NCBI RefSeq assembly: GCF_963664135.1
Contig: NZ_OY760905.1
Span: forward strand, 62,001-126,000
DNA: 64,000 bases
Direction of reading: 5' to 3'
Source: an uncultured Acetobacterium sp.
GTDB lineage: Bacteria; Bacillota; Clostridia; Eubacteriales; Eubacteriaceae
Part shown: positions 23,381 through 46,745 of the stretch, one piece after another
Numbering within the stretch: position 1 is the stretch's first letter
Layout: every line of letters begins with the position of its first letter
Notes under the pieces: generated by a model
The model's database searches: none
What the model saw: the letters and a program-made list of their open reading frames with translations, nothing else
What the model was told of the DNA's origin: nothing
Program-made: the position numbers and the translations under genes

Positions 23381-23386
23381 TTGACG

Positions 23387-24004: not shown

Positions 24005-24053
24005 GAAGTTTGCTAAAAATTTCACGACACTAATCGAAAGGAGACATGGCATT

Positions 24054-27246: not shown

Positions 27247-27258
27247 GGAGGTGTCACC

Positions 27259-28898: not shown

Positions 28899-28927
28899 AC
28901 GAATAATGCGAATGGAGAGTGATTTCA

Positions 28928-30049
28928 ATGGAGTTCAGAGATTTAAAAACGCAGTATCAAAAATACAAAGATGAAATTGATGGAGCCATTCAAAAAGTTC
29001 TGGTAAAAGCTGACTTTGTCAGCGGAGCAGAAATTCAAATTTTAGAAAAAAGACTGGCCAAATACGTTGGCGTCAAACATTGCATTTCCTGTGCCAATGG
29101 CACTGAAGCCATGACACTGGTATTGATGGCCTGGAGAATTGAAAAAGATGATGCGATCTTTGTGCCGGATTTTACTTTCTTTTCAACTGGTGAAGTTGTG
29201 TCTTTAAGAGGTGCAACACCTATATTTGTTGACGTCGATCCAAATACTTTTAATATTGACACGATAAAATTAGAAAAAGCCATTCAAAGAGTAATCCAGG
29301 AAGGTGAACTCAAACCAAAAGCTATTATTCCGGTGGATCTATTTGGTCTGCCGGCAGATCACAGCGAGATTGGTCGGATTGCTGAAAAATATAATCTGCT
29401 TGTTTTGGAAGATGCAGCCCAGGGCTTTGGGGGCAGTATTAACGGTCAGAAGGCCGGCAGTTTCGGTAAGGCTGCCACGACATCATTTTTTCCGGCAAAA
29501 CCACTCGGTTGCTATGGCGATGGCGGTGCGATTTTCACAAATGATGATCAATTAGCCAGTCTGCTCAATTCCTACAAGGTTCATGGTAAAGGAATAAATA
29601 AATATGATAATGTCAGGATCGGACTTAATTCCCGGTTGGACACCATCCAGGCAGCGGTGTTAAATGTCAAACTAACCGCATTTATTAACCATGAACTTGA
29701 GGATATCAACAAAATCTATCGTCTATATAACAAAAAATTGGATGGCGCTGTCGGAATCCCGGTGATGCCGGCGGGTTATTATTCGAGCTTTGCCCAGTAC
29801 ACCATTAAACTTAAGAACAAATCAGAACGAGACGCGCTAAAAACCAGATTAAGTGAGCATAAGATTCCGAGTATGATTTACTATTCAAAACCAATGCACC
29901 AACAGGAAGCTTTTAATACCCGGGAATATGATGAGTCGGACTATCCGGTCGTTAGAGAACTTTGCGATACAGTGATATCATTACCGATGCATCCCTATCT
30001 GGCTGAGGAAGAAATCGACGAAGTTTGCAATTTAATTTTGAAGCGTTAG
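28928..30049 (+). CDS. wbpE: UDP-3-keto-GlcNAcA aminotransferase, WbpE/WlbC-like
   Basis: PLP enzyme aminating the 3-keto sugar with glutamate. 373 residues, opening MEFRDLKTQYQKYKDEID, with CANGTEAMTLVLMA, VDLFGLPAD, EDAAQGFGG and the PLP lysine in SFFPAKPLGCYGDGG. Paired with wbpB, whose 2-oxoglutarate it regenerates. Start ATG 28928 behind GGAGAG; a GTG 9 bases earlier is less likely. The product with wbpD is UDP-2,3-diacetamido-2,3-dideoxy-glucuronate. No wbpI epimerase is seen. Confidence 0.88.
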   Translation: MEFRDLKTQYQKYKDEIDGAIQKVLVKADFVSGAEIQILEKRLAKYVGVKHCISCANGTEAMTLVLMAWRIEKDDAIFVPDFTFFSTGEVVSLRGATPIFVDVDPNTFNIDTIKLEKAIQRVIQEGELKPKAIIPVDLFGLPADHSEIGRIAEKYNLLVLEDAAQGFGGSINGQKAGSFGKAATTSFFPAKPLGCYGDGGAIFTNDDQLASLLNSYKVHGKGINKYDNVRIGLNSRLDTIQAAVLNVKLTAFINHELEDINKIYRLYNKKLDGAVGIPVMPAGYYSSFAQYTIKLKNKSERDALKTRLSEHKIPSMIYYSKPMHQQEAFNTREYDESDYPVVRELCDTVISLPMHPYLAEEEIDEVCNLILKR

Positions 30050-31187: not shown

Positions 31188-32375
31188 ATGATGCAAAAAA
31201 AACATATTTGCTTTGTTGTACCAAACTATCCGACACAAAATGATCCGGTTTATACCTTTGTGAGAGAGCTGGTCTGCTCAATAGCTGAGCAGGGATATCC
31301 ATGTTCGGTAATTGCACCGCAAAGTATCACAAAAAAGTTCCTGAAAAAAAAGTCAGACCGACCACTTTTCTGGCAAGATCATATAAAAGATGGCGTGTGG
31401 GTGGATGTTTACCAGCCCAGAGTCATATCATTTTCCAATATCCAGCTATTTGGAAGAAATATTTCAACAGTTATTGCACAAAAAGCAGTGATCAGATGTT
31501 TTGCTAAAATAAAACCAGTACCTGATATTCTATATGCTCACTTTTGGCATTCCGGTGTAATGGCTGGTTTGCTCAGTAAGAAGTATGGCATTCCCTTTTT
31601 TGTAGCAACAGGTGAAAGTAAGATTTGGGTGGAAAGTCTCTATACCCGCAAGACGATTAAAAAAGCCCTCGCTGATATAAACGGTGTAATCTGTGTATCA
31701 ACTAAAAATTTGAACGAAAGTATTGAACTGAAACTTGCGCCGCAAGATAAGATGGTTGTGATTCCAAACGCTATTGATCCAGAAAAGTTTTACAAAATTG
31801 ATAAATGTGAAATCAGAAACAAACTGGGATTCAATGAGGAGGACTTTATTGTTTCATTCATGGGTTCATTTGATCAACGCAAGGGTGTCTTACGTTTGTC
31901 GGAAGCAGTGAAGCAAGTGGATCAGGCGAAAGCAATTTTTATTGGATCAGGTGAACTGACTCCCAAAGGTGATGAAATTCTTTTTGTTGGTAAGCTTCCC
32001 CATGGACAGATCTGTGAATATTTAAATTGTTCAGATATTTTTGTGCTACCAACACTTGCTGAAGGTTGTAGCAATGCTATTTTGGAAGCAATGGCCTGTG
32101 GTTTGCCAATTATCTCTTCAAATCTGGAATTTAATGATGATATTTTAACCGTACATAATTCCATCCGAATTGATAGTATGAATGTGGAAGCCATCGCAGC
32201 AGCGATTAATCGTCTTAAGAATGACCACAGCTTACGTAATAAAATGGCAGAAAGTGCTTTAGCGCATTCACAAAAATATCATATCAAAAATAGAACTGAG
32301 AAAATTCTGTCGTATATAGAAACTGCAATTGATGACGAAAAAGAGGTTCAACATGATAATCAAGAAATCGACTAA
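31188..32375 (+). CDS. Glycosyltransferase family 4
   Basis: 395 residues, GT-B. N-terminal VVPNYPTQNDPVYTFVRELV, central KMVVIPNAIDPEKFY, and C-terminal FVLPTLAEGCSNAILEAMACGLP define GT4. It has a GAGGGGGG ribosome site. Its last 23 bp overlap the start of the polymerase gene, indicating one operon. Confidence 0.83.
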   Translation: MMQKKHICFVVPNYPTQNDPVYTFVRELVCSIAEQGYPCSVIAPQSITKKFLKKKSDRPLFWQDHIKDGVWVDVYQPRVISFSNIQLFGRNISTVIAQKAVIRCFAKIKPVPDILYAHFWHSGVMAGLLSKKYGIPFFVATGESKIWVESLYTRKTIKKALADINGVICVSTKNLNESIELKLAPQDKMVVIPNAIDPEKFYKIDKCEIRNKLGFNEEDFIVSFMGSFDQRKGVLRLSEAVKQVDQAKAIFIGSGELTPKGDEILFVGKLPHGQICEYLNCSDIFVLPTLAEGCSNAILEAMACGLPIISSNLEFNDDILTVHNSIRIDSMNVEAIAAAINRLKNDHSLRNKMAESALAHSQKYHIKNRTEKILSYIETAIDDEKEVQHDNQEID

Positions 32376-33687
32376 TTCCATTGCCATACTGGCAATAGCA
32401 TTAATATTAATTGTGATCGGGCTTTCGAACAGTCTCTTTTTAATAATAGGAATAATTATAGCGAGTGCATACATTTTTTTTAGTGGCTCAGATGGAATTT
32501 ATGGACTGTTCTTCATGTTGCCCTTTTCTCCTATATTAAAATTCACACCAGGCGGAAACACTTTTTTTAATATTTTGATAGCTGTTTATATACTTCGAAT
32601 GATTTTTTTTAATAAAGCGTTCAAAGTTGCTCTATATCAAATTTTATCCATATTATTGTTAATTATCTTCTCATTATTTCATGTAAATGATACAAATCTA
32701 ATTGAAATAGTCAATCTCGTTATTTATTTCATATTAGCCATATTGGTAATGAACGACAGAGAAAACATAAACATCAGAAAACTAGTGATGTTCTTTGCAG
32801 CAGGTATCATTATTGCAGCCTTGTTAGGCTATTTTAGTGATTATATACCAGGTCTAAGTCAGTTTATCAGGGAAACACGAGTAAAACTAAGCGATGGCGA
32901 TGTATTTGCCAGATTTTCCGGAATTCAAACAAATCCGAATTTTTATACCATGGATATAACAATTGCCATTTCAGCGCTGTTATACATGATCGGAATGAAA
33001 AAGCATCAGTGGTATGACTATGTTTTGGTGATTATTTTGTTAGGATTTGGTGTGCTATCATTAAGCCAATCGTTTATACTAACAATTGGAATGGTCTTTT
33101 TGTTATATTTTATTTATAAGTTATTTCAACTGCCGAAAATCACCTTTGATGTCAAAGTAATTTTGAGAGGAACGCTTTTTATTTTTTTCACTTTGTTCAT
33201 TATCACCCAAATAAGCAATCTTCCTTACATGGATATTTATATCCAAAGATTGGGGATCGGCAGTTATGCGGTTCGAAATCTATCAGATCTTACCACTGGA
33301 CGTTCGGATATCTGGTCAGATTATTTAAATCTATATTTAAGTGACTGGAGAATCTTCCTTTTTGGAGTGGGGTTTTCCGTTGATGCCTATAATTTAAGAC
33401 AGGCACATAATTTTTTTCTCGAGCTGTTAGTGTATTTAGGAATCATTGGAACAGCCGTTTATCTAAATGTATTGAATTCTATTTTCAAGCCATTTTCAAT
33501 GAAAATAAAGGGTCGAATCCTTTGTCTTTTACCTTTAATCGCATTGATAATAAGGGGATTGGGCATCAATTTATTTTTTCGAGAAAATTTTATATTTTAC
33601 CTAATTATCTGTGCTCTAATCATGGCAGATTATGACATAGACGATGGTTTAAAACTGCCTTGGAATGGAGATTCGGATGAAAAATAA
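32353..33687 (+). CDS. wzy: O-antigen ligase/polymerase-like membrane protein (Wzy)
   Basis: 444 residues, about 11-12 hydrophobic helices and a larger extracytoplasmic loop near 280-330 (YIQRLGIGSYAVRNLSDLTTGRSDIW) as in Wzy/WaaL. The motif RQAHNFFLELLVYLGI with the conserved H is typical of the O-antigen polymerase family. It would join repeat units on the outer face. ATG 32353 with AAGAGG is chosen; the frame extends upstream inside the previous gene. Sequence alone does not separate polymerase from ligase, but wzx genes and wall-attachment LCP support Wzy. Confidence 0.78.
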   Translation: MIIKKSTNSIAILAIALILIVIGLSNSLFLIIGIIIASAYIFFSGSDGIYGLFFMLPFSPILKFTPGGNTFFNILIAVYILRMIFFNKAFKVALYQILSILLLIIFSLFHVNDTNLIEIVNLVIYFILAILVMNDRENINIRKLVMFFAAGIIIAALLGYFSDYIPGLSQFIRETRVKLSDGDVFARFSGIQTNPNFYTMDITIAISALLYMIGMKKHQWYDYVLVIILLGFGVLSLSQSFILTIGMVFLLYFIYKLFQLPKITFDVKVILRGTLFIFFTLFIITQISNLPYMDIYIQRLGIGSYAVRNLSDLTTGRSDIWSDYLNLYLSDWRIFLFGVGFSVDAYNLRQAHNFFLELLVYLGIIGTAVYLNVLNSIFKPFSMKIKGRILCLLPLIALIIRGLGINLFFRENFIFYLIICALIMADYDIDDGLKLPWNGDSDEK

Positions 33688-34387
33688 ATTAATTTTGCTG
33701 GAGTTTAACGGTATTCCTGGTTCAGGAAAAACAACGCTATCAAATAGAATAATTACAAATATGAAGGATATGAATTATGCCATTGAATCCTATCATCAGG
33801 TAATAAAAAAACCAACAAGAAAAAATTTAAGACATTTAACGCGGTATCTATTCAGTATAAAACCGTCAAGCTTTAAAATGGGATATTTTGCTGTGATGTA
33901 TCTGTTCACAAATAAAATATTCAACCATGAAAATTAGTTAAGGGTAATTTCATTAATTATTCTTTTTGATCTTTATCAAAAAAAAAGTTTGGAAAATAAT
34001 GATGAAGTTATTGTGATCGATCAGGGAATTATACAACAAATTATTTCCATGCTCTACAAGTCTGAGTTGATTGCAGACAAATATATAAAAAAAATAATTA
34101 AATATACAAAAGAGAAAGATCTGGGATTAAATATTATCAATGTTGATCTGGATATCAAAGCATCTTTTGAACGGCTGAACCAGCGCAAAGGAAATGTCTC
34201 GAGAATTCAAACACTGAGCAATGAGATGGCCATTCTTACATTAAACACACAACAAAATAATCTTTATAAAATCAGAGAAATTATCAATGAAATTGATCTA
34301 GAGAGTATTGATATCAACACGCAAGAGAGTATTGATAAAAACGTCCTCTTGCTTGAAAATTATATAATGAAAATAAAAAAACAATGA
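33677..34387 (+). pseudogene. P-loop kinase-like protein interrupted by one in-frame amber codon
   Basis: One frame of 236 codons runs from ATG 33677 to the stop at 34385-34387, broken only by TAG at 33935-33937 (codon 87). The N-terminal part has LLEFNGIPGSGKTTLSNR (Walker A, as in thymidylate-kinase-like or adenylylsulfate-kinase-like enzymes). The part after the TAG continues without another stop (VIVIDQGIIQQIIS, then an arginine-rich lid FERLNQRKGNVSR). It overlaps the wzy end by 11 bp. Either a recent nonsense mutation, a sequencing error, or readthrough. In polysaccharide clusters such kinases may phosphorylate a sugar or carrier; role unknown. Confidence 0.7.
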
Positions 34388-34471: not shown

Positions 34472-35434
34472 ATGAAAAATGAAATAATAGTCAGTGTGAG
34501 CTGTATCACTTTTAATCATGAGAATTATATTGCTGAGGCTATAGAGAGCTTTATCATGCAAAAAACCAGTTTTAAGTATGAAATACTGATACATGATGAT
34601 GCGTCTACGGACAAAACAGCGGAAATAATACATAAGTATGAAAAAGAATATCCGGAATTAATAAAAGCAATTTATCAAAAAGAAAATCTCTATTCAAAAG
34701 ATGTTGATGTGGATGATCTGAATACTGAAAGGGCTAAAGGGAAGTATATAGCACTGTGCGAAGGTGATGATTATTGGCTAGATCCTTATAAACTTCAGAA
34801 ACAAGTTGATTATATGGAGGCGCATTCTGATTGTACATTGTGTGTTCATGCGGCATATATTGTCAACGTCATGGGTAAAAAAATTAAGCCGATTCGAGCG
34901 AATCTGGGGAATAAAATATTTTCTGTTGAAGAAATAATTGAAGGTGGCGGTGGATTGTTTGCGACAAATACGATGATGTATCCGCGTTACTTAGATTTGA
35001 ATAAACCAGATTTTTATAAAAAAGCACCGGTGACGGATTATCCTCTTGCTATATATCTTGCGCTTAAAGGAAAAGTATATTACATTGATGAATACATGGC
35101 AGCTTATCGTAAAGGTGTTAGTGGTTCATGGACAAATACGGAACAATCTAGTCTTGAGAAAATAATAAAACATGTCAATAATACAGAAATAATGTTGGAT
35201 CATCTCAATCAGCATACGGGGTATCAATTCAATAAAGCAATAGAAAACAAAAAGAATATAAATTTATTTAAAATACTAATTGCGCAAGAACGGTTTAAAG
35301 AATTAAGGGAAGGCAAATTCAAGTCAGTTTACAAAAACATAACGACAAAAGAAAAAACAAAGATATTGATTAAACAGTACTTTCCGCGTAGCGTGAAAAT
35401 ATACAAAAGAATAAGACGAAAGTATAAATTGTAG
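34472..35434 (+). CDS. Glycosyltransferase family 2
   Basis: 320 residues, GT-A fold, inverting. N-terminal VSVSCITFNHENYIAEAIES, then LIHDDASTDKTAEII (nucleotide binding) and LCEGDDYWLDPYKL, the D-x-D-like acid pair binding metal and nucleotide-sugar. WxxDPxKLxKQVxYM is typical of a common GT2 branch. Weak start context: GGGGGAGCA before ATG. It follows the broken kinase after 84 bp and is the only GT-A enzyme in the cluster. Confidence 0.85.
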   Translation: MKNEIIVSVSCITFNHENYIAEAIESFIMQKTSFKYEILIHDDASTDKTAEIIHKYEKEYPELIKAIYQKENLYSKDVDVDDLNTERAKGKYIALCEGDDYWLDPYKLQKQVDYMEAHSDCTLCVHAAYIVNVMGKKIKPIRANLGNKIFSVEEIIEGGGGLFATNTMMYPRYLDLNKPDFYKKAPVTDYPLAIYLALKGKVYYIDEYMAAYRKGVSGSWTNTEQSSLEKIIKHVNNTEIMLDHLNQHTGYQFNKAIENKKNINLFKILIAQERFKELREGKFKSVYKNITTKEKTKILIKQYFPRSVKIYKRIRRKYKL

Positions 35435-35519
35435 TGATATTAATAAAACCGGGCTGACAAATTGATTTTAGAAACTAATGATACAGGTGTAAATTTATGA
35501 TGAAAATGGGGGTGTGAAG

Positions 35520-36395
35520 ATGATATTGCAGAAATTCAAGACAGGATTATTGAAAATCGATGACATTGTTCTGAATGGGATTTTAAAAGCATTTTACATA
35601 CGTAATATTAAATATCGAGGAAAAGCATACGAATTAACTGATGATCTATATTTTCCACCGCACACTGATTCAAATAAAAGCATAAGAATGGGTTCAACAG
35701 GCGAGTTATTAGCGATCGGAGGAGATTGGAAAGCTGATCGAATTATACATGCATATAAAAGTGGAGTATATCCAGTCTCGTTCAAAGATCAACCCATTCT
35801 CTGGTGGACTTCGGAGGTTCATTGTGTTATGAAACCCAATGAGATTCATATAGCAAAGAATATGCGGACACTAATCCGCCAGGATAAATTTAAACTGACA
35901 GTAGATAAAGCCTTTCAAGCTGTAGTTAGTGCTTGTTCAGAAACGCGAAAAGGATATACATGGCTAACGCATGAACAAGTGGAAGCATTTCATAACCTGT
36001 ATGCGTTGGGATTTGCTCATTCTGTTGAAGTATGGCAAGACGAAAAACTGGTAGGTGGATTGTTTGGAATTTCATTTGGTTCATATTTTCATGGTGAGTC
36101 AATGTTTGCCAGAGTGAACCATGCCTCAAAACTGGCTTATATTGCACTATCTCTTCGTTTGGCAGAAATGGACAATTTCATAATGGATTGTGGTATTTGG
36201 CCGACGGAACATATGAAAAGTCTGGGTGCCACTGTCATTTCACGTGATGAGTTTCTTAAGATTCTTGATATAAGCAAGGATGTTCCTGATGTAATCAATA
36301 ACTGGGAAGATTTGTTTAACAACTGGGATTTGAAGCAAGCTGTCGAACAACATCAAAATGGTTTGACTTCTAAGAAGGAAGGAGTTTTGACATGA
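35520..36395 (+). CDS. Leucyl/phenylalanyl-tRNA-protein transferase-like (Aat-like) protein 1
   Basis: 291 residues with the Aat fold (GNAT-like): a 45-residue N-terminal extension, then LLAIGGDWKADRIIHAYKSG, QPILWWTSEVHCVM, GYTWLTHEQVEAF, HSVEVWQDEKLVGGLFG, HGESMFARVNHASK and MDCGIWPTEHMKSLGA. Classical Aat moves Leu/Phe from tRNA to N-terminal Lys/Arg for degradation. Here the family motif DCQ (catalytic Gln188 of E. coli) reads DCG, while the Glu of GESMF is kept. It overlaps the vioA-like gene by 4 bp and sits among sugar genes. I infer transfer of an amino acid to an amino sugar rather than N-degron work. Confidence 0.8.
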   Translation: MILQKFKTGLLKIDDIVLNGILKAFYIRNIKYRGKAYELTDDLYFPPHTDSNKSIRMGSTGELLAIGGDWKADRIIHAYKSGVYPVSFKDQPILWWTSEVHCVMKPNEIHIAKNMRTLIRQDKFKLTVDKAFQAVVSACSETRKGYTWLTHEQVEAFHNLYALGFAHSVEVWQDEKLVGGLFGISFGSYFHGESMFARVNHASKLAYIALSLRLAEMDNFIMDCGIWPTEHMKSLGATVISRDEFLKILDISKDVPDVINNWEDLFNNWDLKQAVEQHQNGLTSKKEGVLT

Positions 36396-37504
36396 AAGAG
36401 CTTATCAACGTAACCCGGTCATCGATGCCAGATTTTGACGAGTTCATGGAGGAAATAAAAGACCTATGGGAGACACATTGGCTGACTAATATGGGCGAAA
36501 AGCATAAGAAATTTGCAAAATGCTTAAGAAGCTACTTAGATGTAGAAATGATTACGCTTTTAGCAAATGGTCACCTTGCGCTAGAATGCGCAATTGCAGC
36601 TTTTGACTTACAGGGAGAAGTAATTACAACACCTTTTACATTTGCATCGACGACGCATGCAATTGTCAGAAATGGTTTGGAACCAGTCTTTTGCGATATT
36701 GATGAAAATGATTATAACATTGATGCAAAAAAAATAGAAAACCTAATTACTGAAAAAACATGTGCAATTGTTCCCGTTCATTTATATGGAAATGTTTGTG
36801 ATACAGAAAAAATAGAAGATATTGCTAAAAAATACAATTTAAAGGTTGTTTATGATGCGGCACATGCTTTCGGAGAAACTGTAAATGGCATCGGTATTGG
36901 TAATTTCGGTGATGCCTCAACCTTTAGTTTCCATGCGACAAAGGTATTTAATACGATAGAAGGAGGAGCAGTAACCTATAATAATGAAGAGCTGAAAAAA
37001 ACACTTTATTTTCTTAAAAATTTCGGCATAACTGGTCCTGAGACTGTGGAGTTTGTTGGAGGAAATGCAAAAATGAATGAGTTTCAGGCGGCAATGGGAA
37101 TTTGCAATCTTCGTCATATAGATGGCGAAATTATGAAGCGGCAGCTAGTTGTACAGCGCTACCGGGAAAATTTGGAAAATATAAAAGGAATCAAACTGCT
37201 TAAACCGCAAGCTGGAGTTAAAAGTAATTATGCATACTTCCCAGTTATATTTAATGACAAAACAAATTTAAGGGATTTTGTTTTCGACGAACTGGAAATC
37301 AATAATATTATTCCCAGAAAGTACTTTTATCCATTAACAACAGATTATGAATGCTATACCGGGCGATTCAACTCAGCACACACACCGGTCGCAAAAAATA
37401 TTTCGAATCGTGTGCTGACTTTACCACTGTACGCAGATTTGGAATTAAAAGATGTTGATCGGATTTGTAGAATTATCACGAAATCAATATCAACAGGAAT
37501 ATGA
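36392..37504 (+). CDS. VioA-like dTDP-4-amino-4,6-dideoxyglucose transaminase (DegT family)
   Basis: 370 residues. Opening INVTRSSMPDFDEFMEEIKD, HWLTNMGEKHKKF, EVITTPFTFASTTHAIVRNG and the PLP-lysine segment FSFHATKVFNTIEGGA resemble VioA, which makes dTDP-Qui4N from dTDP-4-keto-6-deoxyglucose. Some other 4-keto sugar substrate is possible; rmlA/rmlB are not in the window. Translationally coupled to the Aat-like gene (overlapping ATGA). The free 4-amino group of such a sugar is a plausible acceptor for an aminoacyl group. Confidence 0.78.
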   Translation: MKELINVTRSSMPDFDEFMEEIKDLWETHWLTNMGEKHKKFAKCLRSYLDVEMITLLANGHLALECAIAAFDLQGEVITTPFTFASTTHAIVRNGLEPVFCDIDENDYNIDAKKIENLITEKTCAIVPVHLYGNVCDTEKIEDIAKKYNLKVVYDAAHAFGETVNGIGIGNFGDASTFSFHATKVFNTIEGGAVTYNNEELKKTLYFLKNFGITGPETVEFVGGNAKMNEFQAAMGICNLRHIDGEIMKRQLVVQRYRENLENIKGIKLLKPQAGVKSNYAYFPVIFNDKTNLRDFVFDELEINNIIPRKYFYPLTTDYECYTGRFNSAHTPVAKNISNRVLTLPLYADLELKDVDRICRIITKSISTGI

Positions 37505-37624
37505 AAATTGCTGCTTGTTTAAAGATCTGTTTGAATGTGAGTGTTCAAATCGTCGAAATATTCTATAAAAATAATCGACTATCCTGACTGGGGAGAATTG
37601 CAAAGCGAAGGTGGGTAACAGCGG

Positions 37625-39115
37625 ATGAAGGGATCAAACAAAGACAAAGCATTTTTAGGTGTTTATTGGATGACAATCATGGGACTTGCTGGCGTTGGCA
37701 TCAGGTTACTAATTACCATGACTTTATCCAGGTTGTTACTTCCAGAAGAATTTGGTCAAGTCGCAACAATCCAAATAATAATTAGTTTTGCTGAAATATT
37801 CTGGATGATGGGTATAGGAAGTGCCATCATCCAAAAGAAACAAATAAATGATGACTATATTGCAACTGGGAATACTTTAAACTTACTGCTGGGTCTTATT
37901 ATTTATCTTACTATTTTCATATTTGCAGAATCCATCGCTAGAATTGTAGGGTCGGATGATATCTTTATGTTGCGGGTGCTTTCAGTAGTATTTGTGATCC
38001 ATAGTATTTCAGGGGTTTCGGAGGCCTTGCTTCAAAAAGAAATGCATTTCAAGGTTATCAGCATTATAAACACAGTCGCAGCTGTAACCAATGGCGTTTT
38101 TGCGATCGGATTTGCTTTAAATGGATTTGGTGCATGGTCACTTGTTTTTGCACAGTTAATAAGTGTAATGATACAAACGATCTTATCATTAATAAATAAG
38201 CCAATTAAGTTTAGCATAAAAATTGAAAAGCAATCGGCGAAAGAATTAATTAATCTGGGTTCCGGATTTGCTCTATCAAAAGTATTTAATAATATTGCCA
38301 ATCAAGGCGATTACTTTGTTGTGAGTCAAACCCTGGGCAGTACTGCTTTGGGATTTTACAATCGAGCCTATCAATTGTTACTAGTACCAACAAATTTGAT
38401 TGCAACAGTGATGGAACGGGTTTTATTTCCCTTATTGGCTATGTATCAGGATGAACATGAAAAAATAAGGTATGTAGTTTTGAATTTAACTGCTTTAATC
38501 GCAATCTTAGCCTTTCCGATCACAATTATATCATTGACAATGGGAGCCGATTTAGTTCAAGTGGTATTAGGTTCAAAATGGGAAGAGACCATTCTTCCAT
38601 TTAAAATACTAATCGCAAGTTTGTTTTTTAGAATGGCATATAAAATAGGTGATGCTCTTGTACGGTCATTAGGTGCAGTCTATAAACGGCTTTGGGTTCA
38701 AATATTTTATGCAGCTCTTGTTATCGGAGGCGCGTATATTGGGAAAGATTGGGGAATAGTGGGAGTTGCAATAACAACAACCATAGCAATTATTATTAAC
38801 TATTTTGTTATGACTTTGCTGATTGGGCATTTAGTTGAATTGAAAATCAGAGAATTGTTGAGATATTTAACGCCAATCATTTTAGTTAGTTTAGTAGTTG
38901 GAATCATATGCTACTTTCTAAAAATGCCCATTGCAAATTTATCATTTGCACTTGTTAGGCTTGTTGCAATGACTTTAGCAGTAGGTATAATGTACCTCGT
39001 TGCATTTAAGTTTTTTATTATCAAAGTTATGCCTGAAGATTTCAAAGACTTTATTGATGTCGTCAAAACTCAGACCATTGGGAAGCTGGCGCCAAAAGAC
39101 AAGACCATCAAATAA
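37625..39115 (+). CDS. Polysaccharide flippase 1 (Wzx, MOP superfamily)
   Basis: 496 residues with about 12-14 membrane helices, N-terminal AFLGVYWMTIMGLAGVGIRLL and LSRLLLPEEFGQVATIQI, the polysaccharide-synthase/MOP signature. Later NNIANQGDYFVVSQTLGSTALGFYNRAYQ is characteristic. It would translocate lipid-linked repeat units outward. It is followed by a second flippase after 20 bp. The 120 bp before it hold no clear promoter. Confidence 0.85.
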   Translation: MKGSNKDKAFLGVYWMTIMGLAGVGIRLLITMTLSRLLLPEEFGQVATIQIIISFAEIFWMMGIGSAIIQKKQINDDYIATGNTLNLLLGLIIYLTIFIFAESIARIVGSDDIFMLRVLSVVFVIHSISGVSEALLQKEMHFKVISIINTVAAVTNGVFAIGFALNGFGAWSLVFAQLISVMIQTILSLINKPIKFSIKIEKQSAKELINLGSGFALSKVFNNIANQGDYFVVSQTLGSTALGFYNRAYQLLLVPTNLIATVMERVLFPLLAMYQDEHEKIRYVVLNLTALIAILAFPITIISLTMGADLVQVVLGSKWEETILPFKILIASLFFRMAYKIGDALVRSLGAVYKRLWVQIFYAALVIGGAYIGKDWGIVGVAITTTIAIIINYFVMTLLIGHLVELKIRELLRYLTPIILVSLVVGIICYFLKMPIANLSFALVRLVAMTLAVGIMYLVAFKFFIIKVMPEDFKDFIDVVKTQTIGKLAPKDKTIK

Positions 39116-39135
39116 TAGAACTTGGAAGAAGAAAT

Positions 39136-40593
39136 ATGAATGATAAGCAAATAAAATCTAAAGTTATTTCATCACTATTCTGGAAATTCATGGAGCGACT
39201 TGGAACTCAAGGAATACAATTTATAGTTCAAATTGCATTGGCTCGGCTCCTTTTACCAGAAGAATACGGATCAATAGCATTGATATCCATTTTTATTGCT
39301 TTTGCAAATGTATTTGTTCAATATGGATTTAATACAGCCCTTGTTCAAAAGAAGAATGCAGATGATACTGATTTCTCTTCAGTGTTTTTTTTAAGTATGG
39401 CTATTGCAGGGTTATGTTATATTATTTTGTTTTTCTCAGCCCCACTGATCGCATCATTCTATGAAAATTCACTGCTCATACCACTTCTTAGAGTATTATC
39501 ACTTACGTTATTTTTTGGAGCAGTAAATTCTATTCAAAATGCTGTTGTATCGAGAAATATGGAATTTAAGAAATTATTTTATAGTAGTTTAGGGGCAGTA
39601 GTGGTATCTGGAATAGTAGGTATTGGGATGGCTTTTAGTGGTTATGGCACCTGGGCGCTGGTAGTCCAACAGCTAACAAATCAGTTTATTATTGCATTGA
39701 TTCTGTGGTTTACTGTTAAGTGGCGCCCCAAACTTCTTTTATCAATAGAAAGTTTGAAAGATCTATTTTCTTTTGGTTGGAAGCTTTTAGTTTCGGCACT
39801 TATAAATATGCTTTACACGAATGCTCAAAGTTTGTTTATTGCAAAAATCTATAATCCAGCGATGTTAGGTTATTTTAATCGAGGTCAACAGTTTCCTTCG
39901 CTGATAGTATCAAATATTAATGGTTCAATTCAATCGGTAATGTTCCCGGCACTCTCATTAGAACAAGATAATGTTCATAGAGTTAAAGAAATGGTGAGAA
40001 GAGCTATCATTACCAGTGCATTTTTTATATTTCCCATGATGGTTGGATTGGCGGTTATTGCGGAACCTCTGGTTAAAATTTTACTGACTGATAAATGGTT
40101 GCCCTGTGTTCCGTTTTTGCAGATTTCATGTGCAGCGTATGCTCTATTGCCAATTCATACGGCAAATCTTCAGGCGATTAATGCACTAGGCCGCAGTGAT
40201 ATATTTTTAAAACTGGAGATCATTAAAAATGTTGTTAGTTTTGCGATTTTGGGGATATCATTGTTTTATGGTATCTATGCAATTGCTGCCGGTATGTTTT
40301 TAAGCAGCCTTGCCTGCTCGTTTATAAATGCCTATCCGAATAAAAAACTCCTTGATTACAGTTATTTTCAGCAGATAAAAGATGTGATGCCATCACTTTT
40401 ATTAGCTTTGGCAATGGGTATCGTTATATATTGCTTTTTATGGCTTAATTTGAATCCGGGGCTAACCTTAGTAATGCAAGTAAGTGTCGGTGTGATAATC
40501 TACTTGGGAATGGCAAAAATATTGAAATTTGAGAGCTTAACATATTTATTGATAACTGGGAAAGAAATGCTGAATAATAGAAATAAGAGTTAA
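39136..40593 (+). CDS. Polysaccharide flippase 2 (Wzx, MOP superfamily)
   Basis: 485 residues, about 12-14 helices, with VISSLFWKFMERLGTQGIQF, ARLLLPEEYGSIALISI and ALINMLYTNAQSLFIAKIYN. It is alignable to the preceding gene but diverged (roughly 30 per cent by eye), so this is an old duplication or separate acquisition. Two flippases with one polymerase suggest two substrates or a modified and an unmodified repeat unit. Confidence 0.85.
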   Translation: MNDKQIKSKVISSLFWKFMERLGTQGIQFIVQIALARLLLPEEYGSIALISIFIAFANVFVQYGFNTALVQKKNADDTDFSSVFFLSMAIAGLCYIILFFSAPLIASFYENSLLIPLLRVLSLTLFFGAVNSIQNAVVSRNMEFKKLFYSSLGAVVVSGIVGIGMAFSGYGTWALVVQQLTNQFIIALILWFTVKWRPKLLLSIESLKDLFSFGWKLLVSALINMLYTNAQSLFIAKIYNPAMLGYFNRGQQFPSLIVSNINGSIQSVMFPALSLEQDNVHRVKEMVRRAIITSAFFIFPMMVGLAVIAEPLVKILLTDKWLPCVPFLQISCAAYALLPIHTANLQAINALGRSDIFLKLEIIKNVVSFAILGISLFYGIYAIAAGMFLSSLACSFINAYPNKKLLDYSYFQQIKDVMPSLLLALAMGIVIYCFLWLNLNPGLTLVMQVSVGVIIYLGMAKILKFESLTYLLITGKEMLNNRNKS

Positions 40594-40663
40594 TAAGATG
40601 ATTAGTAATTACTGCAAAAAAACAGGTAACATAGATGCTAGATTTAAGATGCGAGGTAAAGAT

Positions 40664-41383
40664 ATGAATATATCAATAATGCAACCTTATTTATTTCCAT
40701 ACATTGGATATTATCAAATGATAAATTGTTCGGACAGTTTCGTTATTGCAGATGATGTTCAGTTTATAAAGCAAGGATGGATTAATAGAAATCGGATATT
40801 GTTAAATGGTGAACCGTCAATGATCACTTTACCAATAAGTAGAGACAGCACATATCTGAAAATATGTGAGCGAAGTTTTGAAAATCAAACTGGTTCGAAG
40901 GGCAGGATTAGGTTCTTGAACAAAATTCACAACTCCTATCATAAGGCTCCAGAATTTATAAATATGTATCCTCTTATTGAAAAGATAATAAATTTCGAAA
41001 ATAACAATGTTACAGAATACTTATTTAACAGCATAAAAGAAATTTGTTTATATTTGGATATTAATACTGAGATTTTATTGGAGTCATCATTCAATTTATC
41101 TCCAGAACTAGATTATCAGGATTCCGTAATTTATGTTTGTAAGAACCTGAACGCAGATCGATACATTAACTCGATTGGTGGAATGAACTTATACTCGGCA
41201 CAAAAATTCACAGCAAATGATATTGAATTGAAGTTCATAAAGACAAAAGAATCACTAGAATACAAACAGTTTTATAATAAATTTGTCTCCAATTTATCGA
41301 TCATTGATGTTTTGATGTTTAATTCTCTGGTTGAAATCAAAAAACTGTTAAGTGAGTATGACCTGATTGATGGTAGAAACTAG
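40664..41383 (+). CDS. WbqC family protein
   Basis: 239 residues. MNISIMQPYLFPYIGYYQMI opens the family, with DDVQFIKQGWINRNRIL and ITLPISRDSTYLKI soon after; C-terminal NSIGGMNLYSAQKF. WbqC-like proteins lie in O-antigen clusters; from memory, one relative (WbnG) was suggested to attach glycine to an amino sugar, but no activity is proven. Start ATG 40664 follows GAGG; an in-frame extension to 40598 is not family-like. It is convergent with the second Aat-like gene 12 bp away, which strengthens a shared role in amino-acid substitution. Confidence 0.85.
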   Translation: MNISIMQPYLFPYIGYYQMINCSDSFVIADDVQFIKQGWINRNRILLNGEPSMITLPISRDSTYLKICERSFENQTGSKGRIRFLNKIHNSYHKAPEFINMYPLIEKIINFENNNVTEYLFNSIKEICLYLDINTEILLESSFNLSPELDYQDSVIYVCKNLNADRYINSIGGMNLYSAQKFTANDIELKFIKTKESLEYKQFYNKFVSNLSIIDVLMFNSLVEIKKLLSEYDLIDGRN

Positions 41384-41395
41384 GTTTTAGCGGAT

Positions 41396-42259
41396 TTATG
41401 AAATTGGGTCAAGCTGATTTTTATCGATGTGGTTTTTTACAGCCTGACAAAAATCCCAATTTTCAAACAGGTCTTTCCAGCTCTCGATAATATTAGGAGC
41501 CTCAATGCTTTGATTTAATAGTTCAAGGAACTCATCACGCTGGATAATGACAGCGCCCATGCTTTTCAGATGATCTGTTGGCCAAGTTCCACAGTCCAAC
41601 AAAGAATAGTTTAGTTCTTCCAATCGAATCGCTAAGGCAATCATTGCAAATTTGGAAGCATGGTTCACACGTGTGAACATTGACGATATGTAGAAATATG
41701 AACCAAGAGTGAAACCAAATAACCCTGCAACCAATTTTCCATCCTGCCAGACTTCGACAGAGTGTTTATAATCTAAATCATGTAATTCACAACAGGATTT
41801 TATCCGGTCAGGGGTAAGCCAGGTGTAATCTTTTCTTGCTTCAGCACAGGAATTAACAACATCATTAAAAGCACTATCTATAGTCAAGTGAAAATTGTTG
41901 TGTTTTATTAATCGCCACATAACTTTCGAAATATGTATGTTTTTGGTAAATAAAACACAACGGATTTCTGAAGTCCACCAGAGAATGGGCTGTCCTTTGA
42001 CAGAGGATGGATAAATTCCATTTTTAAATGCAAGAATAATTCGTTCAGGTGTCAGATCTCCCCCAACAGCTAATAGTTGGTCTTCTGGTCCCATTCGCAC
42101 ATTCTTATTCGATGATGAATGAGGAGGGAAAAATAATTCATCTGTAAGAAGGTATGCTTTTCCTCGGTACATGAAATGCTCAGCGTAAAATGACTTGATG
42201 TGTCCGTTTAAAAAGCGCGCATCTATTTCTAAAAGGTGTGATTTTATGCTTTTAGGCAT
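41396..42259 (-). CDS. Leucyl/phenylalanyl-tRNA-protein transferase-like (Aat-like) protein 2
   Basis: 287 residues, about half identical to the gene at 35520 over the whole length: LLAVGGDLTPERIILAFKNG, QPILWWTSEIRCVL, DYTWLTPDRI, HSVEVWQDGKLVAGLFG, SSMFTRVNHASK and LDCGTWPTDHLKSMGA. Like copy 1 it has DCG in place of DCQ. It has also lost the acidic residue of GESMF (here ISSMF). It is on the opposite strand from the rest of the cluster with its own ribosome site (AAGGAGGGAA), so it is separately expressed. Probably still binds aminoacyl-tRNA (W-rich pocket kept), with a new acceptor or none. Confidence 0.8.
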   Translation of the reverse strand: MPKSIKSHLLEIDARFLNGHIKSFYAEHFMYRGKAYLLTDELFFPPHSSSNKNVRMGPEDQLLAVGGDLTPERIILAFKNGIYPSSVKGQPILWWTSEIRCVLFTKNIHISKVMWRLIKHNNFHLTIDSAFNDVVNSCAEARKDYTWLTPDRIKSCCELHDLDYKHSVEVWQDGKLVAGLFGFTLGSYFYISSMFTRVNHASKFAMIALAIRLEELNYSLLDCGTWPTDHLKSMGAVIIQRDEFLELLNQSIEAPNIIESWKDLFENWDFCQAVKNHIDKNQLDPIS

Positions 42260-42482: not shown

Positions 42483-42645
42483 GACGCCATAAAAGTAAAT
42501 AACCTAATATGCTAATGTTGGGTTGTTCTAGTCAATATGGCTTGATAATTCTTGAACAAAGTTAAAATCGAGTCATTATAACAAACTTCACATAATTAGC
42601 AACTATGGACTATTATGGGAATAATTTGTAAGTTTGTTGTTTTCT

Positions 42646-42722
42646 ACGATAAAAGCAAACCTGTTGAAAAACCGGGACGCAAAGCTAGAGGGCCTGTAAA
42701 ATGGCAGCCAGCTACCGAAAGG
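42646..42722 (+). promoter_or_regulatory. c-di-GMP-I (GEMM-I) riboswitch 1 of the tandem triplet
   Basis: Contains the conserved elements in order: GCAAACC, a GAAA tetraloop on GTT/AAC, GGGACGCAAAGC, GGGCCTGTAAAATGGCAGCC and GCTACCGAAA. The outer stem P1 is short (TTTCT with AGGAA). No obvious terminator directly follows it. Confidence 0.93.
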
Positions 42723-42779: not shown

Positions 42780-42879
42780 AACTTTCCAACGATAAAGGCA
42801 AACCTGTCGAAAGATGGGGACGCAAAACTAAAGGGCCTGTAAAATGGCAGCCAGTTACCGAAGGGAGAGTTTTTTATTT
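42780..42879 (+). promoter_or_regulatory. c-di-GMP-I riboswitch 2 with terminator-like P1
   Basis: Core from 42789: GGCAAACC, CGAAAG loop, GGGACGCAAAAC, GGGCCTGTAAAATGGCAGCC, GTTACCGAA. P1 pairs AACTTTCC (42780-42787) with GGAGAGTT (42864-42871; one G-U pair), and a T-run follows at once (42870-42879). Ligand-stabilised P1 would thus act as a terminator stem, predicting an OFF switch. Confidence 0.93.
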
Positions 42880-42890
42880 GCAATTAATCG

Positions 42891-42979
42891 TTATTCAACG
42901 ATAAAGGCAAACCAACTGAAAAGTTGGGACGCAAAGCCAAGGGCCTGTAAAATGGCAGCCGGATACCGAAAGGAATACC
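42891..42979 (+). promoter_or_regulatory. c-di-GMP-I riboswitch 3 overlapping the ribosome binding site
   Basis: Core from 42898: GGCAAACC, CAACT-GAAA-AGTTG hairpin, GGGACGCAAAGCC, GGGCCTGTAAAATGGCAGCC, GATACCGAAAGG. P1 pairs TATTC upstream with GAATA at 42973-42977, next to or covering the AAAGG ribosome site 8 bases before the ATG at 42983. This suggests translational control. Confidence 0.93.
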
Positions 42980-42982
42980 ATC

Positions 42983-44581
42983 ATGAAAAAATTATCTGCT
43001 TTTTTAGTCACATTATTTGTATTATTTAGTGTAATGCCTGTAAATGCGGCATACGCAAGAGTTAGACACCCGAAACAACCTGTAACTGTAACAACGCCAA
43101 CGACAACAACGCCAACGACAACAACACCAACGACAACAACACCAACGACAACAACACCAACGACAACAACCCCAACGACCACAACGCCAACGACCACAAC
43201 GCCAACGACCACGACACCAACGACGACACCACCAGTAAATCAGACACTCAGTGTCAAAGATTTTGGTGCAAAAGGTGATGGCGTAACCGATGATACCGCA
43301 GCCATTCAAAAAGCCATCAATGACGCAAGTGCAAAAAATGTAGCCTTGACAATTCCGGCGTCGACCTATGTGGTTGCCAGTCAGCTTCAAATTAAAAGCA
43401 ACACCAAAATAAGCGGTTATGGAGCAGTCTTGTATATGGCTCCCCAACAGGCTGCAGTCAATAATATTCTTTGGTCAGACCCGGCAGCATACATCTCTAA
43501 CGTTACAATCGAAGGATTGACATTAAAGTCTCAGAATACTATCCCGGGAACCGAATATTATGCCAACAGCATGATTAGTAATGTTCAGGGAATGTTTTTT
43601 CAAGGAATCAGTAACCTGACAATCAAAGATGTTTCCATGGACAGCATGTACGTCGGAGTAAAGATGGGACAATCTGGAAGTCAGCGAAATCAGGGAATCA
43701 CCGTCAGTAATCTTAAAATTAATAACACTGGCATGCCCATTCAAGTCTCTGGAACCAATGATTTAATCATGACAGATAGTATCCTCAATGCGAATGCTGG
43801 CGGAACAAAATGGTTACATGCAGCCTATATTCGCGGGGATAACAGTAATTTTCTTTTTAGAAACGTTGAGTTTAACAATGCCCCTGGCGGCGGAATTGCA
43901 GTTGCCGGGAATGAAAAATTCCCAACTCCGCCTGATCATATTGTATTTGAAAACTGTCGCGTTAAAAATAGTGTTGTCGGTGTTCACATCAATACTGGCG
44001 CAAACAACGTATCAATTACAGGATTAACGATTGAAGGGAGCGGACTGGCTTTCAAAATAGCTGATGCAAACAATCTGAACATTAAAGATGTAAACATCCG
44101 TGGTGCTGTGCCATCAACCACCGATCTCGGTGCATTCAGTATTGGAAACAGCTTCCAGTCAACCATATCAAATGTAACAGTCGATTCAACCGGTATGGCC
44201 GGTGCAATGTTCTGGTTTATCGGCGAAGTTAAAGATACCAATATTTCAGGAATGAATGTTACAAATATGGAAAAAATTCCCTTGATCAGTGCCAGCAGTG
44301 CATCTAAAACAACCAATGTTGTTTTAGAGAATTCAAGCTTTGAATATAACAATATTGACAAATACGGCATCGGATTCAGAGGCGTAGGATCACAGGCCGT
44401 TCTCAAAAACAATACTTTTACAAATAGTGGTGCTGCTTATTCGTATCTGATTTATAATCCTGAAGGGACAAACATCCAGGTATCAGACAATTCATACCAG
44501 GGATTCCAGAGATTGAATTCCAGCTCTGACTTCTCAGTAGCCACCAACAATTTCAATCTCCTGACAGCTAAAGCTGATTGA
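42983..44581 (+). CDS. Secreted beta-helix (pectate-lyase-like) protein with Thr/Pro linker, paralogue 2
   Basis: 532 residues: signal peptide 1-25 (KKLSAFLVTLFVLFSVMPVNA, cut near AYA), a Pro-Thr linker of about 45 residues (PTTTT units), then a 448-residue pectate-lyase-superfamily domain starting SVKDFGAKGDGVTDDTAAIQ. Parallel beta-helix repeats fill the rest. The Thr-rich linker is a likely O-glycosylation site or wall-spanning spacer. No sortase motif. The domain is nearly identical to that of 44805-46745. Expression is under three c-di-GMP riboswitches. Likely binds or cleaves a uronic-acid polymer, perhaps the one made by the neighbouring cluster; catalytic residues not assigned. Confidence 0.85.
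   Translation: MKKLSAFLVTLFVLFSVMPVNAAYARVRHPKQPVTVTTPTTTTPTTTTPTTTTPTTTTPTTTTPTTTTPTTTTPTTTTPTTTPPVNQTLSVKDFGAKGDGVTDDTAAIQKAINDASAKNVALTIPASTYVVASQLQIKSNTKISGYGAVLYMAPQQAAVNNILWSDPAAYISNVTIEGLTLKSQNTIPGTEYYANSMISNVQGMFFQGISNLTIKDVSMDSMYVGVKMGQSGSQRNQGITVSNLKINNTGMPIQVSGTNDLIMTDSILNANAGGTKWLHAAYIRGDNSNFLFRNVEFNNAPGGGIAVAGNEKFPTPPDHIVFENCRVKNSVVGVHINTGANNVSITGLTIEGSGLAFKIADANNLNIKDVNIRGAVPSTTDLGAFSIGNSFQSTISNVTVDSTGMAGAMFWFIGEVKDTNISGMNVTNMEKIPLISASSASKTTNVVLENSSFEYNNIDKYGIGFRGVGSQAVLKNNTFTNSGAAYSYLIYNPEGTNIQVSDNSYQGFQRLNSSSDFSVATNNFNLLTAKAD
43097..43228 (+). repeat. 15-bp minisatellite coding PTTTT
   Basis: About eight and a half in-frame copies of a CCAACGACAACAACG-type unit, with wobble variants (ACA/ACG/ACC). 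Copy number changes in steps of 15 bp would lengthen or shorten the linker without frameshift. On the minus strand it yields long artefactual valine/glycine-rich frames. Confidence 0.9.
43235..44581 (+). repeat. 1347-bp duplicated module, copy 1
   Basis: Aligned without gaps to 45399-46745 at a fixed offset of 2164 bp. I counted about 22 mismatches by eye (around 98 per cent identity), giving five amino-acid differences. Similarity stops at the linker upstream and at the stop codon downstream. Confidence 0.92.
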
Positions 44582-44680: not shown

Positions 44681-44715
44681 GATACAACAACGGCAATTAT
44701 TGAGTAACCATATCC

Positions 44716-44791
44716 ACGATAAAGGCAAACCAACTAAAAAGTTGGGACGCAAAGCTAAGGGCCTGTAAAATGGTAGCCGGCTACCGAAAGG
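44716..44791 (+). promoter_or_regulatory. c-di-GMP-I riboswitch 4 (variant tetraloop)
   Basis: GGCAAACC, CAACT-AAAA-AGTTG, GGGACGCAAAGC, GGGCCTGTAAAATGGTAGCC, GCTACCGAAAGG. It differs from the other three by an AAAA instead of GAAA loop and by GGTAGCC instead of GGCAGCC. The AAAGGAG ribosome site of 44805 forms its 3' edge, implying translational control. Confidence 0.9.
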
Positions 44792-44804: not shown

Positions 44805-46745
44805 ATGGAACATAATATAAAGAGAATTAGCGTGAGTATGGCTTTGACATTAACATTGACTCTATTGATACTAGTTATTGTTTTTTCTTCACATGTTTTT
44901 GCAGCGACTTTAGAAACAGAAGCAACTGATACGATTGGAGTAACCTATCGTACCCATATTCAGAATGAAGGTTGGACACAGGGATGGATGAGTAATAGCC
45001 AACTTTCCGGCTCAGAAGGAAAGAGCCTTCGTTTAGAAGGTATAGAGATAAAACTGACAGGAAATGTACCTGCTGGTTTGGGAATCGAATACCGGACACA
45101 TGTTCAGAACAAAGGATGGGAGCAGAAATGGGCAACCAACGGCGGCTTTTCAGGATCGGAAGGCGAGGGTCTTCGATTAGAAGCAGTTCAGATCAGATTA
45201 ACGGGTACGAATACAGCAGGCTATTCTGTAAAATATCGAACGCATATCCAGAATGAAGGTTGGACCCAAGGATGGGTTTCCGATGGCGCTTTATCTGGAT
45301 CGGAAGGAAAAGGCCTTCGTTTAGAAGCAATAGAAATTATTATTGAAAAATTACCTGTTGGGACAACGGCACCACCACCAACGACGACACCACCACCAGT
45401 AAATCAGACACTCAGTGTCAAAGATTTTGGTGCAAAAGGTGATGGCGTAACCGATGATACCGCAGCTATTCAAAAAGCCATCAATGACGCAAGTGCAAAA
45501 AATGTAGCCTTGACAATTCCGGCGTCGACCTATGTGGTCGCCAGTCAGCTTCAAATTAAAAGCAACACCAAAATAAGCGGTTATGGAGCAGTCTTGTATA
45601 TGGCTCCCCAACAGGCTGCAGTCAGTAATATTCTTTGGTCAGACCCGGCAGCATACATCTCTAACGTTACAATCGAAGGGTTGACATTAAAGTCTCAGAA
45701 TACTATCCCGGGAACCGAATATTATGCCAACAGCATGATTAGTAATGTTCAGGGAATGTTTTTTCAAGGAATCAGTAACCTGACAATCAAAGATGTTTCC
45801 ATGGACAGCATGTACGTCGGAGTGAAGATGGGACAATCTGGAAGTCAGCGAAATCAGGGAATCACCGTCAGTAATCTTAAAATTAATAACACTGGCATGC
45901 CCATTCAAGTCTCTGGAACCAATGATTTAACCATGACAGATAGTATTCTCAATGCGAATGCTGGCGGAACAAAATGGTTACATGCAGCCTATATTCGCGG
46001 GGATAACAGTAATTTTCTTTTTAGAAACGTTGAGTTTAACAACGCCCCTGGCGGCGGAATTGCAGTTGCCGGGAATGAAAAATTCCCAACTCCGCCTGAT
46101 CATATTGTATTTGAAAACTGTCGCGTTAAAAATAGTGTTGTCGGTGTTCACATCAATACTGGCGCAAATAACGTATCAATTACAGGCTTAACGATTGAAG
46201 GGAGCGGACTGGCTTTCAAAATAGCTGATGCAAACAATCTGAACATTAAAGATGTAAACATCCGTGGTGCTGTGCCATCAACCACCGATCTCGGTGCATT
46301 CAGTATTGGAAACAGCTTCCAGTCAACCATATCAAATGTAACAGTCGATTCAACCGGTATGGCCGGTGCAATGTTCTGGTTTATCGGCGAAGTTAAAGAT
46401 ACCAATATTTCAGGAATGGATGTTACAAATATGGAAAAAATTCCCTTGATCAGTGCCAGCAGCACATCTAAAACAACCAATGTTGTTTTAGAGAATTCAA
46501 GCTTTGAATATAACAATATTGACAAATATGGCATCGGATTCAGAGGCGTAGGATCACAGGCCGTTCTCAAAAACAATACTTTTACAAATAGTGGTGCTGC
46601 TTATTCGTACCTGATTTATAATCCTGAAGGGACAAACATCCAGGTATCGGACAATTCATACCAGGGATTCCAGAGATTGAATTCCAGCTCTGACTTCTCA
46701 GTTGTCACCAATAATTTCAACCTCCTGACAGCTAAAGCGGATTAA
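44805..46745 (+). CDS. Secreted ChW-repeat beta-helix (pectate-lyase-like) protein, paralogue 3
   Basis: 646 residues: signal peptide about 1-33 (cut near VFA), three ChW repeats of about 47 residues each (YRTHIQNEGWTQGWMSN, YRTHVQNKGWEQKWATN, YRTHIQNEGWTQGWVSD; each with GSEG and LRLE), a short TTPPP linker, then the same pectate-lyase-like domain as paralogue 2. ChW (clostridial hydrophobic-W) repeats are surface- or polysaccharide-binding modules. The family thus swaps N-terminal anchors on a fixed catalytic or binding domain. Controlled by riboswitch 4. Confidence 0.87.
   Translation: MEHNIKRISVSMALTLTLTLLILVIVFSSHVFAATLETEATDTIGVTYRTHIQNEGWTQGWMSNSQLSGSEGKSLRLEGIEIKLTGNVPAGLGIEYRTHVQNKGWEQKWATNGGFSGSEGEGLRLEAVQIRLTGTNTAGYSVKYRTHIQNEGWTQGWVSDGALSGSEGKGLRLEAIEIIIEKLPVGTTAPPPTTTPPPVNQTLSVKDFGAKGDGVTDDTAAIQKAINDASAKNVALTIPASTYVVASQLQIKSNTKISGYGAVLYMAPQQAAVSNILWSDPAAYISNVTIEGLTLKSQNTIPGTEYYANSMISNVQGMFFQGISNLTIKDVSMDSMYVGVKMGQSGSQRNQGITVSNLKINNTGMPIQVSGTNDLTMTDSILNANAGGTKWLHAAYIRGDNSNFLFRNVEFNNAPGGGIAVAGNEKFPTPPDHIVFENCRVKNSVVGVHINTGANNVSITGLTIEGSGLAFKIADANNLNIKDVNIRGAVPSTTDLGAFSIGNSFQSTISNVTVDSTGMAGAMFWFIGEVKDTNISGMDVTNMEKIPLISASSTSKTTNVVLENSSFEYNNIDKYGIGFRGVGSQAVLKNNTFTNSGAAYSYLIYNPEGTNIQVSDNSYQGFQRLNSSSDFSVVTNNFNLLTAKAD
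45399..46745 (+). repeat. 1347-bp duplicated module, copy 2
   Basis: See copy 1 at 43235-44581. Most mismatches are synonymous and scattered; a small cluster lies in the last 50 bp. Confidence 0.92.

Follow-up and report, generated by a model that had tools for sequence, protein, structure and literature searches.

Aat-type enzymes take an amino acid that is esterified to tRNA and transfer it to an amine, and a reaction of this type is what we propose here for two Aat genes in a polysaccharide cluster of an uncultured Acetobacterium sp. The genes are located in a stretch of 64,000 nucleotides (the window; G000:C1:62001-126000) from a genome of 4.08 Mb in one contig (G000). Escherichia coli Aat (TIGR00667/PF03588; 2z3k, 2dps, and 2cxa) belongs to the same family by profile and has D186, W111, F153, S157, and K167 in common with the Aats of this genus. 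In contrast to the E. coli type, the genus Aats have Gly in place of Q188, have lost W49, carry a C-terminal tail of 33–44 residues, occur without ClpS, and are encoded in polysaccharide clusters. Transferases of the FemABX type, including Orf11 of BD-12, similarly use tRNA as the source of an amino acid that they attach to an amine, and Orf11 is described as catalyzing the tRNA-dependent glycylation of streptothrisamine, an amino-sugar natural product intermediate (PMC12945691). The Aat and FemABX lineages are both assigned to the GNAT fold (PMC2922099). However, FemABX is a different family with an antibiotic or peptidoglycan as acceptor, whereas a polysaccharide acceptor is proposed here, and no Fem-type Pfam domain was found in the window proteins at E up to 0.001, the Aats matching PF03588 only. 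With respect to the product, N-acylated 4-amino-4,6-dideoxyglucose (Qui4N) and 3-amino-3,6-dideoxyglucose (Qui3N) of O-antigens and capsules are of the class proposed here. In polysaccharides of other bacteria, Qui4N is described as carrying N-acetylglycyl or acylated alanyl groups, and Qui3N as carrying N-acetyl-alanyl (PMC3210612). Amino-acid substituents on these sugars are thus known chemistry, which supports the substituted Qui4N-like sugar supposed in a first-pass annotation of the window. They are known as Gram-negative structures, and the portion of that source drawn on here does not name the enzyme of the aminoacyl step (PMC3210612). A changed amino acid is described for a Plasmodium homologue of the Aat-like fold, which has arginyl-transferase activity (PMC6135404). 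No report of an Aat acting on a glycan was found among titles and abstract openings of the open-licence literature.

We give an even chance to the interpretation that the window Aats represent a neofunctionalized branch of the family serving polysaccharide repeat-unit synthesis, where they aminoacylate a 3- or 4-amino-dideoxyhexose at its free amine. In the proposed pathway, the DegT/DnrJ-family aminotransferase encoded next to Aat copy 1 would most likely produce a nucleotide-linked 4-amino-4,6-dideoxyhexose. Its substrate could be deoxythymidine diphosphate (dTDP)-4-keto-6-deoxyglucose supplied by RmlB, encoded outside the cluster, or possibly a uridine diphosphate (UDP)-sugar. RmlB scores above cut-off in all nine genomes tested, the window's genome included. 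The Aat-type enzyme would join a tRNA-esterified amino acid to the free sugar amine, at the stage of either the nucleotide sugar or the lipid-linked unit, and Wzx would flip the repeat unit prior to polymerization. If this is true, the branch offers a concrete candidate enzyme for placing amino-acid substituents on polysaccharide amino sugars, and a family hitherto tied to protein degradation would have been recruited to glycan synthesis. Should aminoacyl-tRNA be the donor, substrates of translation would be linked to matrix chemistry. The pattern of presence and absence within one culturable genus allows a test by comparison of polysaccharides.

The genomic context of the Aat genes points in this direction. 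By gene content, the stretch from ~22 to 54 kb of the window appears to be a Wzx/Wzy-type polysaccharide cluster. Open reading frames (ORFs), Pfam, and NCBIfam confirmed that it holds what the first-pass annotation had grouped together, namely two full-length Aats, an aminotransferase, two flippases, and a WbqC gene. The 4-bp overlap of the Aat copy 1 stop with the aminotransferase start (ATGA) was likewise found as described. Within the genus, we compared the window with seven fetched loci (L046-L052), giving 8 loci with 13 Aats. All eight are polysaccharide clusters with a DegT aminotransferase, and seven have WbqC. An orthologue of the window aminotransferase is found in 7/8 loci, and in 7/8 an Aat immediately precedes it, with a 4-bp overlap in five loci, a 1-base gap in one, and a 57-base gap in one. 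A divergent locus in G014 (aminotransferase 69% and Aats 45–54% identical), which has three Aats and three WbqC genes, retains the set of glycosyltransferase, flippase, Aat, aminotransferase, and WbqC. In G010, Aat is found some 5–6 kb from FdtA. Judged from sequence, FdtA, a DegT aminotransferase of another kind, and a hexapeptide transferase at this locus would together form a pathway to a 3-amino-dideoxyhexose, and the genome of G010 gave no WbqC match.

The control, which is imperfect, comprised 18 loci with a DCQ-type Aat, mostly from Bacteroidota and three with shortened flanks, and did not extend to ten clostridial DCQ loci (3.5 kb each). Its ten polysaccharide queries were taken from Acetobacterium, a bias towards the loci of this genus. 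A DegT gene near Aat was seen in one of the 18, a locus of a Thermoguttaceae metagenome-assembled genome with the match ~3 kb from Aat and the only locus to match any of the queries; a distant DegT gene was thus still picked up despite the origin of the queries. Compared to this, DegT is near Aat in the window and in 7/7 fetched loci, on which grounds chance placement of the Aats was rejected; this upholds the predicted linkage of DCG-type Aats to amino-sugar genes. Among 18 genomes of the genus, seven have Aat and this aminotransferase, one has Aat only, one the aminotransferase only, and nine have neither (Fisher p 0.003, uncorrected for relatedness). An additional genome of the window's species (G1491; 81% complete, 670 contigs), with neither WbqC nor the aminotransferase, was kept apart from the Aat search and from this table. 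The cluster varies in another respect: a P-loop protein of 374–401 amino acids with a weak thymidylate-kinase match (L048:11261-12421, L049:11426-12550, and L050:7271-8476) is encoded between the aminotransferase and the first flippase only in G001, G002, and G004, which have copy 1 without copy 2. The three genomes with Aat copy 2 are without this gene, and its product may represent an alternative step.

The Aats of the genus also form a separate branch. They were compared with 89 rows (87 distinct genes), namely the 18 loci of a short-peptide scan, the ten clostridial Aats, and those loci that scored best in profile searches; these rows represent nearest relatives rather than a random sample. 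In a tree of 100 rows, the 13 genus Aats fall into one clade (support 100/100), separate from the ten clostridial Aats. The tree carries a long-branch warning, and the position of the clade beside Pseudomonadota genes (support 98/86) is not relied on. The comparison rows have W49, E156, D186, and Q188 (E. coli numbering) in 89/89 cases. In all 13 genus Aats, Q188 is replaced by Gly, giving the DCG in place of DCQ that had been noticed in the first reading of the window, and the Trp at position 49 is absent; E156 is present in nine and lost in four. The positions of W49, E156, and Q188 are occupied by Val, Glu, and Gly in copy 1 and by Ser, Ser, and Gly in copy 2, and because of these differences in the active site the two copies probably use different amino acids or acceptors. 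D186 corresponds to Asp225 of copy 1. For the roles of W49, W111, E156, D186 (presumably the catalytic Asp), and Q188 we assume those of the E. coli structural literature. The catalytic frame appears largely retained, since D186, W111, F153, S157, and K167 are kept in 13/13. Conversely, the donor may have changed and the use of aminoacyl-tRNA should not be assumed, given the loss of W49 and Q188. A motif D-x-G-x-WPT is invariant among the 13 (one G014 ORF is without the N-terminal part), as are a W and a WD in the C-terminal tail, copy 1 included; the tail in the comparison rows has a median of 8 residues (range 1–44). The ratio of nonsynonymous to synonymous substitution rates (dN/dS) was 0.08–0.11 in three copy-1 pairs and 0.10–0.12 in three copy-2 pairs, with two further copy-1 pairs saturated and one copy-2 sequence entered one codon shifted and its terminal stop flagged. 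The genus Aats are under purifying selection (dN/dS about 0.1), and a pseudogene reading of the window copies was rejected on this basis.

Aat has a patchy distribution. A profile search identified PF03588 in 8/18 Acetobacterium genomes (13 genes) and in none of 23 further genomes from its family and order. Copy 1 is also carried by a record of A. dehalogenans DSM 11527 (L016). In a sample of the class, 14/391 genomes have Aat, four of them Acetobacterium and ten from two other families, all ten with D-C-Q. In a sample of the phylum, 2/398 genomes match, one being the window's genome, which is included in both counts, and the other a weak, sub-cut-off, stop-broken match. Within these samples, Aat is uncommon in Bacillota, as had been stated. 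DCG-type relatives outside the genus were sought by profile in 345 genomes of Bacteroidota (297 with a match) and 349 of Pseudomonadota (305 with a match). The best 30 loci of each search and one more locus all have D-x-Q, with one copy read in each of nine genomes with two matches. The exact short-peptide scan of genome contigs picks up close relatives only. The branch is thus seen in one genus, and its confinement to Acetobacterium is not proven. The first-pass annotation had named homologues scattered away from sugar genes as evidence that would count against it; there are none within the genus, and lower-ranked homologues elsewhere were only partly read. Nothing with at least 60% identity turned up in plasmid and phage collections (38 and 6 records). 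The Xanthomonas phage PhiXhv-16 (229 kb) encodes an Aat-family protein (L146:2357-3190; PF03588, E 7.8e-30) in which Asp-Met-Glu takes the place of the usual DCQ, and the gene overlaps that of a protein of 545 amino acids with GNAT matches.

One relative has lost the genes. G003 has an orthologous cluster with no Aat match, in which a decayed C-terminal remnant is all that is left of copy 1 and copy 2 is gone; the frames of the aminotransferase, the flippases, and WbqC are open. Because G003 keeps the cluster without an intact Aat, the Aat step looks like an optional decoration, and a strict need for it seems unlikely. G003, with WbqC and the aminotransferase, and G010, with Aat and no WbqC match, together rule out an obligate Aat-WbqC pair, and WbqC is not a fixed partner of Aat. 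G006 has a WbqC fragment only.

Several other explanations have to be weighed against the proposed aminoacylation of an amino-dideoxyhexose. Both copies exceed the equivalog cut-off of NCBIfam aat (TIGR00667; 143.55 bits) with 165.6 bits for copy 1 and 147.2 bits for copy 2, as would suit ordinary N-degron leucyl/phenylalanyl-tRNA-protein transferases (L/F-transferases) that by chance ended up in a polysaccharide cluster. However, ClpS was found in 0/15 Acetobacterium genomes tested (15 of the 18, with all eight Aat carriers among them) as opposed to 10/10 clostridia with a DCQ-type Aat, making N-degron tagging very unlikely. The loss of Q188 and W49, the consistent linkage to sugar genes, and the presence in less than half of the genus genomes (8/18) similarly argue against this explanation, to which we give little credence. 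The genus Aats pass the family profile but fail with respect to two family-wide residues and ClpS, and by these sequence criteria they are not classed as working L/F-transferases. N-degron function was consequently rejected from the absence of ClpS, the residue losses, and the sugar-gene linkage. The missing catalytic Gln and the decay of copy 1 and absence of copy 2 in G003 could also be taken to mean that the genes are decaying or non-catalytic remnants, but dN/dS of 0.08–0.12, fixation of the new motif in 13/13, and conservation of the tail imply selection for function and make this most improbable. A different possibility is that the Aats became tRNA-free N-acyltransferases of the same sugar amine, using a carrier- or coenzyme A-bound acyl or aminoacyl donor as in many GNAT-fold enzymes. 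This shares the linkage evidence and fits the loss of W49 and Q188 throughout the branch, but the five other positions are retained in every member, and no carrier-protein gene was recognized in the listed stretch of the window, ORFs under 80–100 amino acids being outside that look; on balance it seems unlikely, but the two residue losses make it a rival to be taken seriously. Alternatively, aminoacylation could be tRNA-dependent and directed to another acceptor, such as a sugar hydroxyl (as an ester), another lipid-linked intermediate, an envelope protein at its N-terminus, or a WbqC product at the amine of its glycyl group. No result here fixes the acceptor, WbqC is present in 7/8 loci, and genes for secreted pectate-lyase-fold proteins with ChW repeats are close by. 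Still, the adjacency or overlap of Aat and aminotransferase in 7/8 loci favours an amino sugar, and G010 has Aat without WbqC, and we find a different acceptor rather unlikely.

The proposed aminoacylation of an amino-dideoxyhexose has observations of its own to contend with. All 13 genus Aats lack W49 and Q188, two residues carried by every comparison row, and 4/13 lack E156. The aminotransferase of G010 differs, is ~5 kb from Aat, and has its own hexapeptide transferase; G003 retains the aminotransferase, flippases, and WbqC despite its decayed copy 1 and absent copy 2; and the branch is seen in one genus only. In addition, the model matched by the acetyltransferase at 24054 includes VioB, and the 4-amine may be acetylated instead, which is why we do not go beyond an even chance. 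Against three sugar aminotransferases in the cluster (36392, 28919, and 22274, the last assigned by BLAST similarity only) stand two recognized hexapeptide acetyltransferases (24054 and 28338). One amine may consequently be without a dedicated acetyltransferase, a weak argument as the model at 24054 includes VioB. Of the overall interpretation in the first-pass annotation, the amino-sugar linkage and a role outside the N-degron pathway stand, the tRNA donor is weakened by the loss of W49 and Q188, and WbqC proves not to be a fixed partner; which sugar and which amino acid are involved, and in what order the steps occur, is inferred. One tentative extension, on balance unlikely, is that the two paralogous Aats act in succession with charged tRNAs and give the amino sugar of an exopolysaccharide repeat unit a side chain of one amino acid or a dipeptide. 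Such a pair would correspond, within the Aat lineage, to the peptidoglycan FemXAB ligases, with a glycopolymer decorated by a protein-tagging family.

The partners of the Aats can be placed in families more firmly than in pathways. The window aminotransferase had been called VioA-like. The DegT family (PF01041) is clear, and VioA-like is only approximate, since among curated models DesI (TIGR04427; 279 bits versus a cut-off of 650) comes closest, no equivalog cut-off is reached, and the best PDB match is 2po3. The WbqC gene is a clear member of its family (PF08889), for which a role in glycine transfer is unproven; the proposal of such a role, which we take to be that of the Pfam text, was not confirmed by a literature search. 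No sequence relatives of WbqC were found in PDB (single match, E 0.54). A second WbqC-family gene in G000:C1 at about 1.206 Mb (L137:9251-9982) neighbours a NeuB-family gene and has no Aat with it, an arrangement that points to a WbqC function independent of Aat.

The features of the cluster are listed in the table. Aat copy 2 is 54% identical to copy 1, and no third Aat was found in genome G000. Copy 1 has an in-frame ATG at 35520, previously taken as its start, and relatives of WbqC align from an internal ATG at 40664.

Table. Aat genes and other features of the polysaccharide cluster (window positions)
Feature	Position	Strand	Remarks
NeuD/PglB/VioB-family sugar acetyltransferase	24054-24674	+	TIGR03570 above cut-off
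Hexapeptide acyltransferase of sugar pathway	28338-28898	+	best model TIGR03570, under cut-off
Second sugar aminotransferase	28919-30049	+	best NCBIfam model PseC, cut-off not reached
Wzy/O-antigen ligase-like membrane protein	32329-33687	+	PF04932, slightly under cut-off
Family 2 glycosyltransferase	34472-35434	+	upstream of Aat copy 1; in the set retained by the divergent G014 locus
Aat copy 1	35514-36395	+	293 amino acids, GTG start; PF03588 E 1.6e-55
DegT/DnrJ-family sugar aminotransferase	36392-37504	+	370 amino acids; PF01041 E 2.4e-97
Wzx-type flippase 1	37625-39115	+	PF13440
Wzx-type flippase 2	39136-40593	+	PF13440
WbqC-family protein	40598-41383	+	PF08889 E 1.3e-63
Aat copy 2	41396-42259	-	287 amino acids; PF03588 E 2.7e-54

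Upstream of the Aats, two sets of genes on the plus strand suggest an amino-sugar-rich repeat unit. The first (22274-24674) encodes an aminotransferase, a sugar-phosphate transferase-like protein, and the NeuD/PglB/VioB acetyltransferase, and the second (25942-30049) a dehydrogenase, an oxidoreductase, an acyltransferase, and an aminotransferase. The second set (25942, 27259, 28338, and 28919) resembles what we take to be the UDP-GlcNAc3N-uronate pathway. ORFs 33665-33937 and 33989-34387 (+) correspond to two halves of one P-loop protein of 238–242 amino acids, the gene of which is open in five relatives (L046-L050), and from its sequence the gene at 33665-34387 looks broken in the window. Downstream of Aat copy 2, the pectate-lyase-fold proteins at 42983-44581 and 44805-46745 (+) have nearly identical C-terminal parts, the former with a TTTP repeat and the latter with ChW repeats, and relatives have one or two copies. 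Four c-di-GMP-I-GGC riboswitch aptamers (RF03167) exceed the gathering score on the plus strand, three in tandem (42645-42720, 42788-42863, and 42897-42971) ahead of the 42983 gene and one (44715-44789) ahead of the 44805 gene. Similar riboswitch-like repeats were seen by eye in G003.

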